Positions 2 through 4,423 of a DNA stretch of 17,046 nucleotides are shown here, piece by piece. The stretch is from Thermococci archaeon (lineage in GTDB: Archaea; Hadarchaeota; B88-G9). Below the pieces are notes generated by a model. That model was not told the DNA's origin. It ran no database searches and worked only from the letters and a program-made list of their open reading frames with translations. Within the stretch, counting starts at the first letter, position 1; each line of letters begins with the position of its first letter. The position numbers and the translations under genes were made by a program. Location of the stretch: contig QMUK01000017.1 in the NCBI GenBank assembly GCA_003660555.1, positions 1 to 17,046 on the forward strand, given 5' to 3'.

Positions 2-1225
2 AACAACTACCTTCTAGTGATAGAGAACGGAACCATAAAGCAGATAAGAAGGAGAAAAAGTGTAGAAGAGAAGAGAGAAGCGAAAGAAGTTCAAATACTA
101 ATTCCAGGGTTAGTGAATTCCCACACTCATCTGCCAATGAGTCTCTTCAGGGGAACGGTGGAAGACTTCCCATTGAGCGAGTGGCTTCCTAAGGTGTGGG
201 ACATAGAGAAGAGACTGAGCAGAAAGGACTGCTATTACGGAGCGTTGTTGAGCCTAGTTGAATGCACCAGAAATGGAATAACTACAGTGTGCGACATGTA
301 TTTCCATGAGGAAGAAGTAGCTAAAGCAGTTCAAGAGTCTGGATTGCGTGGATTTCTCTCATATGGAATGATAGACCTAGGAATGGAGGATCTCAGGGAG
401 AAAGAACTAGAAGAAACAATGAAATTCTTGGATTACATATCAGGAGAGAAATTCGATAGAATAAAGGCCACTTTGGGTCCTCACTCTCCATATACCTGCT
501 CTAAAGAGCTCCTTTTAGAAGTAAAGAGAATATCGAAAGAGAAGAATCTGAAGATACAGATGCACATCTCTGAAACAGAGGAAGAAGTCATGGAAGTAAA
601 AGAGAGAGAAGGGCTGAGACCAGTGGAGTACTTAGAGAAGATAGGTTTCCTTTCCGGAGAGGAGATACTATCGCACGGAGTGCATCTCTCTGAGAGAGAG
701 ATCTCCATTCTGAGCATGAGGGGGAGTAGTGTAGTTCACAATCCAATTAGCAATCTTAAACTTAGTTCCGGAGTTGCTCCAATTTCTGAAATGGTGGAGA
801 GAGGAGTAAACCTGCTCCTAGGAACAGACAGTGCTGTCAGCAATAATAGCTTGGACATGTTTCAAGAGATGAAGGTATCCTCTCTTGTAATGAGGTCTAT
901 GGGAAAGACAGTGCCACCTGAGAGGTACTTCCAAATGGCTACTTCTAATGCAGGTAAAGCCCTAGGAATAAAAATCGGAGAAGTGGAAGTAGGATATCGC
1001 GCAGACTTAGTTTTCTTGGAGAAAGGGCCAAATCTGGTTCCATTCGAGGGATATATCTCTCTAGTTTACTCAGCGAATCCATCTAACATAGTGGGAGTAA
1101 TGGTCGATGGGGAAATCTTATTCCAAGAGGGAGAATATCTTAGAATTGACGCTGAGAGAATTCTCAGAAAAGCGGAGAGGAGATATCATGATGGAATCAG
1201 GTCTGAAGAAGATAAGATGGGCTGA
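2..1225 (+). CDS. dadD: 5'-deoxyadenosine / S-adenosylhomocysteine deaminase, amidohydrolase family (5' end outside window)
   Basis: A cytosolic zinc-type amidohydrolase that converts the adenine of 5'-deoxyadenosine, methylthioadenosine, S-adenosylhomocysteine or adenosine to hypoxanthine. Metal and catalytic motifs appear in order: GLVNSHTHLP (HxH, near nt 107-136), QMHISETEEE (His plus Glu, near nt 556-585), SHGVHL (near nt 671-688) and GTDSAVSNN (near nt 821-847). The frame is open to the left edge: residues NNYLLV precede the GTG at nt 17, and family members carry further N-terminal beta strands, so the real start lies upstream and the GTG is not chosen. The 3' end overlaps the SAH hydrolase-like gene by 38 nt, which suggests translational coupling and a shared role in clearing SAM-derived nucleosides. 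Substrate preference cannot be read from the sequence; guanine, cytosine or atrazine-type deaminases are less likely given the neighbour. Confidence 0.85.
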   Translation, partial: NNYLLVIENGTIKQIRRRKSVEEKREAKEVQILIPGLVNSHTHLPMSLFRGTVEDFPLSEWLPKVWDIEKRLSRKDCYYGALLSLVECTRNGITTVCDMYFHEEEVAKAVQESGLRGFLSYGMIDLGMEDLREKELEETMKFLDYISGEKFDRIKATLGPHSPYTCSKELLLEVKRISKEKNLKIQMHISETEEEVMEVKEREGLRPVEYLEKIGFLSGEEILSHGVHLSEREISILSMRGSSVVHNPISNLKLSSGVAPISEMVERGVNLLLGTDSAVSNNSLDMFQEMKVSSLVMRSMGKTVPPERYFQMATSNAGKALGIKIGEVEVGYRADLVFLEKGPNLVPFEGYISLVYSANPSNIVGVMVDGEILFQEGEYLRIDAERILRKAERRYHDGIRSEEDKMG

Positions 1226-2399
1226 AAAGAACATGAAAGTCCTAGGGAAGATAAGAAGGAAATTCTCTGAGGAAAAACCTTTCGATGGGATTAGAATAGG
1301 CATAGCTTTGCATCTAGAGGCTAAGACGGCAGTCTTGATAGAAACTTTGGTGGAAGGAGGAGCAGAGGTCTATGCCACGTCCTGTAATCCGTTGACTACT
1401 CAGGACGACGTTGCCATGGCAATATCTGAGATAGCCGAGGTGAGAGCTTGGAGAGGGGAAACAGAAGAAGAATACTACGAGAACCTCAGATTTGTCCTAA
1501 GGAATTCCGACTTCGTAATAGACGACGGAGCGGATCTAATAGTATTAAACCACTTAGAGGGCATAGGCAACCCAAAAGGAGCTTGCGAGGAGACAACAAC
1601 TGGTATAAGGAGAGTAAATGCACTAGAAAGAGAAAGAAAGCTGAAATTCCCAGTTATAGGTGTAAACGATTCGAAGATGAAGTACCTCTTTGACAACAGA
1701 TTTGGAACTGGGCAATCGGTCATAGACGGGATAATGAGAAGCACGAATTCACTATTAGCAGGAAAGAACTTCGTAGTGATAGGATATGGATGGTGTGGCA
1801 GAGGCATAGCCATGAGAGCTAGGGGAATGGGCGCCAAGGTAATAGTCTGTGAAGTAGATCCCGTTAGGGCAGTGGAAGCACTCCTAGATGGCTTCGAAGT
1901 GATGAAGATATCAGAAGCATCTAGAATAGGGGACTTCTTCGTCACTGCTACTGGCTGCAAAGACGTATTGAGGAGAGAACACTTCTTGGAGATGAGAGAA
2001 GGAGCAATTTTAGCGAATGCTGGACACTTCAATGTGGAGATAAACCTAAGAGATCTAGAGGAGATATCCACGGAAATTAAAGAAGTCAGAAATTGTGTTA
2101 GAGAATACAGGCTCAGAAACGGGAGAAGGATATATCTCCTCGGCGAGGGAAGGTTGGTCAATCTGGTATGTGGTGACGGACATCCAATAGAGATAATGGA
2201 CATAAGTTTCTCTCTACAGGCTCTTTCCATGAGGTATCTCTCTGAGAATTATCCTGAAATGGAGAACAGGGTATACGAAGTACCAAAGGAGATAGAGGAA
2301 GAGGTTGCTTTGGAATTTCTAATGAGTAGAGGAAAATCAATAGATTCTCTGACAGAAGAACAAGCTAAATACCTAGAGGACTGGACTCTAGGGACCTAA
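1188..2399 (+). CDS. ahcY: S-adenosylhomocysteine hydrolase family protein (possibly S-inosylhomocysteine hydrolase)
   Basis: An NAD-dependent cytosolic hydrolase that splits S-adenosyl- (or S-inosyl-) homocysteine into homocysteine and nucleoside, relieving product inhibition of methyltransferases. Visible family blocks are HLEAKTAVLIETL, CNPLTTQDD, DDGADL, EETTTGIR, VNDSK..LFDNRFGTGQS, the Rossmann glycine motif GYGWCGRG (residues 199-206), ANAGHFN and GHPIEIMDISFSLQAL. At 403 aa it is the usual archaeal size and lacks the Lys-Tyr tail of eukaryotic and many bacterial enzymes. I chose ATG 1188, preceded by GAGAGGAG; ATG 1191 is equally possible, while an in-frame start at 1107 would overlap the upstream gene by 119 nt. 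Next to a DadD-like deaminase it may act on S-inosylhomocysteine, as described for Methanocaldococcus. Family assignment is firm; the substrate is inferred. Confidence 0.93.
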   Translation: MMESGLKKIRWAEKNMKVLGKIRRKFSEEKPFDGIRIGIALHLEAKTAVLIETLVEGGAEVYATSCNPLTTQDDVAMAISEIAEVRAWRGETEEEYYENLRFVLRNSDFVIDDGADLIVLNHLEGIGNPKGACEETTTGIRRVNALERERKLKFPVIGVNDSKMKYLFDNRFGTGQSVIDGIMRSTNSLLAGKNFVVIGYGWCGRGIAMRARGMGAKVIVCEVDPVRAVEALLDGFEVMKISEASRIGDFFVTATGCKDVLRREHFLEMREGAILANAGHFNVEINLRDLEEISTEIKEVRNCVREYRLRNGRRIYLLGEGRLVNLVCGDGHPIEIMDISFSLQALSMRYLSENYPEMENRVYEVPKEIEEEVALEFLMSRGKSIDSLTEEQAKYLEDWTLGT

Positions 2400-2909
2400 G
2401 TATTCTTCGAGAACTTCCTTGTACATCTCTTCCCTAGGTATTCTCACTATTCTCTCCTGTAGTTTTCTCGAAATTCCGTGGCTGTTTCCCACTCCTTTGT
2501 CTACTGGTAGAGTAGGAATACATTAAGAAGAGATTTCATCCGAGAATCTTCAAGACCAATGGAATGAGACCACATCTCTTTTTCCCAATGAGTGGCTCAG
2601 ACCTTAGTAGAGAAGAGGGTCTGGTAGCCATTACTGTTCTCCTTGGTACCCTTGAGCTAGGGTCACGCCTAGTTTGAGAATTTTAGAGAGACGTTCTTCG
2701 TCGTATTTCCCATTCAATGTAAGAGAACTAGTCTCTCAAGACTTTTGACGTCTTTCACTACTCTCCTCGTTCCTCTTCATTATCTCTAGGCCTCTTCGTC
2801 TGAGGACATGATCTTAAACACTTCTTTAATTGTTTCATCCGGAAAGTCTGTCTCCTTTTTGAGCTCTTCAATGGATCCAGGGATTGAAGATGCTCCAAGG
2901 TATCTCCAT
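2388..2909 (-). pseudogene. Decayed paralogue of the adjacent protoglobin-like gene
   Basis: This stretch has no long reading frame, but read on the minus strand in shifting frames it aligns end to end with the intact gene at 2986-3549. It starts ATGGAGATACC (nt 2909 downward), the same eleven bases as the intact gene. ETIKEVFKIMSSDEEA matches GIIEEVISSLSQNERA (near 2789-2840). LTLNGKYDEER matches LTLEGNYDEEH (near 2690-2722). LIPLVLKIL matches LVVPLLKAL. NLFLMYSYSTSRQRS matches NLALMLDSYEEARKRS (near 2490-2534). LQERIVRIPREEMY matches LQERLISISSKEIY (near 2424-2465). In-frame stops and at least four frame changes separate these blocks, the proximal-histidine region is scrambled, and no ribosome binding site precedes the ATG. 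Its last codons overlap the 3' end of the SAH hydrolase gene. It is a dead or dying duplicate; programmed frameshifting cannot explain so many breaks. Confidence 0.8.
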
Positions 2910-2985: not shown

Positions 2986-3549
2986 TTATCCACGTCTTTT
3001 TTCGGAATACTCATCGTAAATTTCCTTAGATGAAATGCTTATCAGTCTCTCCTGTAACTCTCCTTTAATTCCAGTCGCCCTCTCTAAGCTCCTTTTCCTT
3101 GCCTCTTCATACGAGTCTAACATTAATGCTAAGTTCCAGTAGAGAGCCTTTAACAATGGAACAACTAATTCAGCTTTGTTTGACTTGAGCAACACTCTAA
3201 TCATCTCTCTTGAGAAGACCCCCATAGTCGAAACCATCAGTCTCTCTGGGACCCCCTCTCTACAATGAGCCAATCCTATTTTAAAGACTCTAGAGGCGTG
3301 TTCCTCGTCGTAATTACCTTCCAGAGTTAGATTCAACCATTCACGAAATAGTTCCTTGGCTCTCTCTATACTGAGTCCAGACGCCTTAACGATTTCTACA
3401 GCTCTTTCATTTTGGGAAAGAGAGGATATCACCTCTTCTATTATCCCATCCATGTTTTCCTTGATTAGTCCACTTGCTTCTCCTCTAAGTATACTTATTT
3501 CCTCATTTGATAGGCCTATGTACTTTTTTATCTCCTCCGGTATCTCCAT
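2986..3549 (-). CDS. Protoglobin-like single-domain globin sensor protein
   Basis: A 187 aa all-alpha protein that looks like a protoglobin or the sensor domain of globin-coupled sensors, which bind haem and gases such as O2, CO or NO. The key block is KIGLAHCREGVPERL (residues 90-104), in which His95 sits where the family's proximal haem ligand lies. The preceding LTLEGNYDEEH and the later NLALMLDSYEEARKRSLERATGI also have the family look, and the length is close to the roughly 195 aa of known archaeal protoglobins. No output domain is attached. Helix B (near residues 28-44) lacks the aromatic distal residues usual in protoglobins, so ligand chemistry may differ, or the protein may be a haem-free relative of the RsbR N-terminal type. 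I chose ATG 3549, with GGGGGTGA just upstream and the same first codons as the decayed copy; GTG 3555 is the alternative. Haem binding is inferred. Confidence 0.72.
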   Translation of the reverse strand: MEIPEEIKKYIGLSNEEISILRGEASGLIKENMDGIIEEVISSLSQNERAVEIVKASGLSIERAKELFREWLNLTLEGNYDEEHASRVFKIGLAHCREGVPERLMVSTMGVFSREMIRVLLKSNKAELVVPLLKALYWNLALMLDSYEEARKRSLERATGIKGELQERLISISSKEIYDEYSEKRRG

Positions 3550-3581
3550 CTTCACCCCCTTTGGGAAGTAAACGGACTCAA

Positions 3582-3588
3582 CTTATTG
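3582..3588 (-). promoter_or_regulatory. Possible TATA-like element for the protoglobin-like gene
   Basis: Minus-strand CAATAAG lies about 26 bases before a predicted start site near 3559. That would leave a leader of about ten bases holding the GGGGGTGA ribosome binding site. Positional argument only; the box is weak. Confidence 0.3.
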
Positions 3589-3681
3589 CCTTTTCCATCG
3601 AGAATAATGTGGATAGACAGCACATTTGTGGAATCATGGGACACTGAGGAATTCACCGCTCTTCAGCTTTAAGCAATTGTT

Positions 3682-3700
3682 AGTGGTGTCGAACACCGCT
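3682..3700. repeat. Inverted repeat / hairpin, 8-bp arms with a 3-nt loop
   Basis: AGTGGTGT, loop CGA, ACACCGCT: eight consecutive pairs, one a G-U wobble if transcribed from the plus strand. It lies 136 bases upstream of the TBP start and about 133 bases upstream of the protoglobin-like start, so it could be an operator, part of an unrecognised RNA, or chance. No poly-T follows, so it is not an obvious terminator. Confidence 0.5.
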
Positions 3701-3803
3701 CTAGTTCCAGAATTGAAGATGGTCAGTCATCCAAGTGAGAGATAATTCGGTGGACAACCCCGGATTACCTAACTACTTATGGTTTTGATTGTTTGACTAT
3801 TCA

Positions 3804-3818
3804 TTTATAAGCTTTTCC
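3804..3818 (+). promoter_or_regulatory. TATA-box promoter of the TBP gene
   Basis: TTTATAAGCTTTTCC has a good archaeal TATA box (TTTATAAG, 3804-3811). A start site 26-27 bases downstream of its centre falls at about 3833-3835, at or just before the GTG start, so the transcript would be leaderless or nearly so. The last ten bases recur at the same spacing before thiC. Confidence 0.6.
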
Positions 3819-3835
3819 GCCCTACATATAAAAAG

Positions 3836-4423
3836 GTGCCGAGCTTGGAGTTGAGTAAGGAGGAAATAGAGAGAATAGTCAAGGAAGCTGAAGTCAACAT
3901 AGAGAATGTGGTGGCCTCAGCCTCTTTGGATCATGATATAAATCTCACAGCTATAGCTACAGCACTAGATGACATAGAATATGAACCCGAACAATTCCCC
4001 GGAGTTGTGTATAGGTTAGATGATCCGAAAACGGCAACTCTTATATTCAGCTCTGGAAAGTTCGTTTGCACAGGCGCGAAGTCCCCAGAAGATGCAAAAA
4101 GAGCTATAATGAAGGTAGTAGAGAAATTGAAGGAGATAGGGATAGATATACGATCTGAGCCAAAGATAGAGGTCCAAAACATAGTGGCATCAGCCAATCT
4201 CAAAGCAAGCTTAAATCTGAATGAAATAGCTCTCCAGTTAGAGAACTCAGAGTACGAGCCTGAACAGTTCCCTGGTCTAATATACAGACTAGATGATCCC
4301 AAGGTAGTCCTCCTTCTCTTCGGCTCTGGAAAAGTGGTTTGCACAGGGGCGAAAAAGGTAGACGACATAGCTAGAGCAATATACAGAGTTATATCTGATC
4401 TGAGAGATTTAGGGCAAATGTGA
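3836..4423 (+). CDS. tbp: TATA-binding protein (archaeal TBP)
   Basis: The general transcription factor that binds the promoter TATA box and recruits TFB and RNA polymerase. The 195 aa protein is the classic saddle of two direct repeats, roughly residues 19-100 and 108-190. The repeats share VASA, YEPEQFPG, YRLDDPK and CTGAK motifs, with IENVVASASL opening the first and VQNIVASANL the second. Family length is about 180-200 aa. The GTG at 3836 lies at the predicted transcription start, which suggests leaderless translation; TTG 3845, with AAGGTG upstream, is a less likely alternative. It heads the long plus-strand cluster, nine bases before the OB-fold gene. An acidic C-terminal tail, present in some archaeal TBPs, is absent. 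Confidence 0.97.
   Translation: MPSLELSKEEIERIVKEAEVNIENVVASASLDHDINLTAIATALDDIEYEPEQFPGVVYRLDDPKTATLIFSSGKFVCTGAKSPEDAKRAIMKVVEKLKEIGIDIRSEPKIEVQNIVASANLKASLNLNEIALQLENSEYEPEQFPGLIYRLDDPKVVLLLFGSGKVVCTGAKKVDDIARAIYRVISDLRDLGQM

Follow-up and report, generated by a model that had tools for sequence, protein, structure and literature searches.

The seemingly empty stretch at 2388-2909 on the minus strand is, we are confident, best explained overall as a pseudogene: the remains of a paralogue that stood in tandem with the intact single-domain protoglobin gene adjoining it on the same strand (2986-3549) in the window, by which we mean the whole 17,046-nucleotide contig that was analysed. What a gene finder would leave empty here is what is left of a second globin, so that this lineage once had two protoglobins. 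The sequence-only reading had already described the stretch as a decayed second copy of a protoglobin-like gene, and its near full-length collinearity with the intact gene bears this out.

The relic and its intact neighbour

A frameshift-tolerant local alignment (Smith-Waterman, BLOSUM62) of the product of 2986-3549 (minus strand) to the minus strand of 2400-2985 yielded a score of 202, far above the maximum of 77 reached by 400 dinucleotide-shuffled sequences (46.6±7.6); this is the frame-tolerant comparison with 2388-2909 that had been proposed as a check. The plus strand of the same stretch scored 43 and other segments of the window 44±8; among segments that include neither copy, even in part, the highest score was 81. 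Residues 9-184 of the intact protein fall on window positions 2905-2403, in order and without rearrangement, and 67 of the 161 aligned codons (42%) specify the same amino acid. The blocks named in the sequence-only reading (ATGGAGATACC, ETIKEVF, LTLNGKYDEER, LIPLVLKIL, NLFLMYSY and LQERIVRIPREEMY) are all present and collinear with the intact gene. A tblastn search of the organism's own genome with the intact protein recovered, beside the intact gene itself, two pieces of the relic and nothing else: 2658-2798 on the minus strand (E=3.1e-4, 40% identity over 48 amino acids, interrupted by one TGA) and, more weakly, 2403-2486 on the minus strand (E=5). Further homologues (L025, L027 and L028) gave scores of 110-130 with the relic, against a background of about 40, and the score of 202 with the intact copy, against 47±8 for shuffled sequence, makes the relic homologous by descent to proteins of Pfam family PF11563. 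A third copy was sought throughout the window, including the gap at 3556-3835, and none was found.

The relic opens with ATGGAGATACC (2909-2899), which is identical to the eleven-base beginning of the intact gene; a spacer of 76 bases (2910-2985) separates the relic from the stop codon of that gene. Its best-preserved block is the one at 2658-2798, which corresponds to residues 48-95 of the intact protein, and its last block ends with a TAG at 2390-2388; since this block runs to the stop, 2388-2909 are the right limits, as had been proposed. The last block, up to its stop, overlaps by 12 bases the 3' end of a convergent, intact gene (1107-2399, plus strand), which probably encodes an adenosylhomocysteinase-like protein (SAHH). 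Homologues of the latter are found across the phylum at 52-57% identity, and the pair formed by an amidohydrolase and SAHH is kept in the phylum, where the relatives lack the protoglobin and their SAHH is only about 53% identical. The longest SAHH frame begins inside the upstream amidohydrolase-like gene, with whose end it shares 119 bases (1107-1225); because its homologues align from about residue 25-30, the true start probably lies some 80 bases further on.

The intact gene encodes a protein of 187 amino acids (189 if an alternative GTG start at 3555 is used), which matches the protoglobin family PF11563 with E=7.5e-18 and 65.5 bits (cut-off 25) over profile positions 7-157 of 158; solved relatives in the PDB are 8h17, 5ohe and 2w31. 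The candidate for the proximal heme histidine (F8) is H95, invariant in alignment A1, which aligns with the second His of the motif GHAHVRVG in 2w31, the proximal HisF8 (His93) of that structure, and Phe68 lies near the distal E11 position. The globin domain is followed by a tail of only about 35 residues, so the protein lacks the second domain of a globin-coupled sensor, and no further Pfam family exceeded its cut-off in the protein. By analogy with other protoglobins, the intact copy presumably makes a heme protein that binds a diatomic gas (O2, NO or CO). On its other side lies a divergently oriented, intact gene (3836-4423, plus strand), which on our own reading of its sequence we take to encode a TATA-box-binding-protein-like product; in the relatives no such gene was found within about 1.5 kb of SAHH.

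Disabling changes in the relic

Several disabling changes separate the relic from its intact paralogue, in the midst of open genes, and nowhere does it present an open frame encoding a protoglobin domain with the proximal histidine. The number of these changes varies with the penalty set on frameshifts, from 3 to 10 frame changes and from one to two stops: harsh penalties leave 3 frame changes and 2 stops, softer ones 7-10 frame changes and 1 stop, the softest penalty tried as many as 18 frame changes, and raising the penalty from 6 to 20 lowers the frame changes from 10 to 3. The earlier statement, which put the frame changes at four or more and spoke of several stops, is thus reasonable, if slightly stronger than the strictest count of three and two. 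At the position of the heme histidine the relic reads CTAGGCGTGACCCTAGCTCAAGGG, with no CAT or CAC codon in register, and it is here that the best-preserved block ends. No Shine-Dalgarno-like word was seen near the ATG of the relic, as against a GGTGA two bases before the ATG of the intact gene, and the N-terminus is partly altered too. Two isolated fragments of the relic found no match in a Pfam search.

The frame changes might in principle be artefacts of sequencing or assembly and the second copy a live gene, and the fragmentation of the assembly into 150 contigs speaks for such caution. Yet about 20 other reading frames elsewhere on the 17-kb contig are uninterrupted, against 3-10 indels within this half kilobase, and a burst of assembly errors confined to it is therefore unlikely; furthermore, indel errors alone do not account for the changes seen at the ribosome-binding site, at the position of the heme histidine and in part of the N-terminus, so that we regard this explanation as very improbable. 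Just as little probability is given to the region having been retained for another role, either as a non-coding RNA or as a 3' region shared with the convergent SAHH gene. The tail-to-tail arrangement with SAHH, whose 3' end the relic's stop overlaps, would suit such a role, but a search of the relic region against Rfam matched no known RNA family.

Origin, age and past selection of the lost copy

The placement of the duplication depends in part on how the relic is aligned. In a tree whose alignment keeps the relic in the register of the intact copy, and is biased towards the latter, the two group together with a support of 81, on branches of 1.08 (relic) and 0.24 (intact). Counting the sites at which the intact copy and its homologue L040 differ, and scoring for each which of the two the relic agrees with, the relic favours the intact copy by 29:11 when the alignment is guided by the intact copy; with the outgroups L042 and L043 as guides the counts are 23:11 (p=0.06) and 15:8 (p=0.21), respectively, and with L040 as guide only 19:16. 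A duplication within this lineage is thereby weakly supported. The relic could instead be a protoglobin that was acquired separately, or a paralogue so ancient that it predates the split from the Thermoproteota homologues: the intact copy is no closer to the relic (42%) than to L040-L042 (41-44%), the sister signal is gone under the L040-guided alignment, and one Thermoproteota genome (G262) holds four divergent paralogues. Since both outgroup guides and the tree join the relic to the intact copy, and the tandem layout on the same strand with a common ATGGAGATACC start suggests local duplication, we consider such a separate or ancient origin the less probable one, albeit of appreciable weight.

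To judge from an amino-acid identity of 42% and third codon positions near saturation, the duplication is old, as the two copies differ as much as the intact copy does from the Thermoproteota homologues and with a similar distribution over the codon: relic and intact copy differ by 0.47, 0.35 and 0.63 at positions 1, 2 and 3, the intact copy and the functional homologue L040 by 0.48, 0.36 and 0.70. When neutral mutation of the intact gene was simulated until the alignment score averaged about the observed value, the gap between third and second positions was at most 0.17, compared with 0.28 observed. An ABC analysis with a selected phase followed by a neutral phase left 28-92% (median 54%) of the relic's branch unconstrained, a loose estimate from a simple substitution model. 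These patterns suggest that the lost copy was probably functional for part of its life. That the duplicate never worked, having been freed from selection at birth and decaying ever since, would be compatible with the upper bound of 92% and with a relic branch about 4.6 times as long as the branch of the intact copy; simulated branches that were 80-100% neutral, matched for the third position, however, gave a mean score near 103 and a second-position difference near 0.40, where 202 and 0.35 are observed, and we hold it to be distinctly unlikely. As for the two scenarios offered by the sequence-only reading, a tandem duplication after which one copy lost its function is in keeping with the data, with the qualification that the duplication is old and its placement in this lineage weakly supported, while two sensors of which one became dispensable agrees with the traces of purifying selection in the lost copy; two working copies therefore fit at least as well as decay from birth.

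The following history can be proposed for the decayed tandem copy. An ancestral protoglobin gene would have been acquired, probably horizontally, since the other members of the phylum lack protoglobin, and then, some time ago, would have been duplicated head-to-tail, on the placement we infer. The two copies may have diverged to about 42% amino-acid identity partly under purifying selection, after which the downstream copy, freed of constraint, would have accumulated small indels, one or more stops, and base substitutions across the codon of the heme histidine. The single AGATACC of the relic matches the start of the intact gene (ATGGAGATACC) and also, shifted, a site a few codons further on (RYLG in the relic, KYIG in the intact copy). 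Near the relic's start, slippage between two AGATACC repeats may have deleted about 20 bases, which would explain both matches. Today the relic presumably makes no globin.

Sparse distribution and probable repeated loss of archaeal protoglobins

Protoglobins are sparsely distributed around this organism. At E<=1e-5, only 16 of the 394 archaeal relatives searched, its own genome included, hold one, and none was found in 27 other genomes of the phylum, a distribution that suggests horizontal gain. In a scan of genome contigs for homologues, a peptide pattern built from a single protein found nothing; an alignment-based scan led to four metagenome-assembled genomes of Thermoproteota (L046-L049; JAOZFH01, JAOZFN01, JAOZGC01 and JAOZFG01), which hold the closest homologues found (42-45% identity in three of them and 30% in the remaining one). 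As we read them, isolate names such as Aegir point to hydrothermal-vent samples. The genes of these four resemble the intact gene in length and tail; they differ from the window in not being arranged in tandem and in the genes beside them. No second copy, live or broken, stood clearly above background within 6 kb on either side of these homologues as far as sequence extends; a candidate at 5401-6000 of L048 (score 104) is read as the start of the gene itself. A search for homologues on plasmids and viral contigs gave none.

A second broken member of this protoglobin clade was noted in a distant archaeon (L054, G312:C170, about 1250-1801, minus strand). With 73 of 167 aligned residues identical to the intact copy (about 44%), its first half is open (105 amino acids) and is followed by several frame changes, while the adjoining reading frames are open; no intact protoglobin copy was found in G312. 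Because this genome holds a broken relative without an intact copy having been found, this small clade has probably seen loss by decay on at least two occasions. A different situation was seen in G262 (JAOZFG01), with its four divergent protoglobin-like genes on different contigs (L043/L049, L044, L045 and L024), of which L044 has no Pfam match and is without the AH motif that holds the proximal histidine. The paralogues at L044 (2025-2480, minus strand) and L045 (1029-1508, plus strand) each lie tail-to-tail with a gene for a protein of about 155 residues; these partners are 43% identical to each other, have a CPF.NL.AYV.R stretch in common and match no Pfam family, and each pair could possibly form a two-gene module.

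More broadly, the relic, its broken counterpart in G312 and the sparseness of intact copies point to gain and loss of protoglobin among archaea, a pattern that an accessory protein for gas sensing or detoxification would be expected to show. As a tentative and rather doubtful generalisation, a clade of tailed archaeal single-domain protoglobins might spread horizontally and be lost repeatedly, leaving broken copies in at least two distant lineages (the window and G312), with a diverged pair, perhaps differing in ligand range or heterodimeric, having been cut to one here. At the level of titles and abstracts, the literature offered nothing specific on pseudogenes of archaeal tandem paralogues or on protoglobins from vents. 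The relic itself should be regarded as an ordinary pseudogene of a known family and a mildly useful record of the turnover of a patchy family, which leaves the general understanding unchanged.

Compared with protoglobins and single-domain sensor globins (Pgb of Methanosarcina acetivorans, Tlr1989 with structure 8h17, and GLOBIN with structure 2w31), the intact copy shares nearly the whole domain, the proximal histidine and the absence of a C-terminal output domain, but carries in addition the C-terminal tail of about 35 residues, which is common to a small archaeal clade (L040-L043); the relic, in contrast to these proteins, keeps the family sequence only in fragments and without the histidine in register. 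With prokaryotic pseudogenes that arise by indel decay of a redundant paralogue it shares frame changes, stops, lost start signals and an intact paralogue adjoining it. From these it differs in nothing of kind; what is new is that the decayed gene is a protoglobin and that the host is an archaeon with no other member of its own family in the set of genomes returned.
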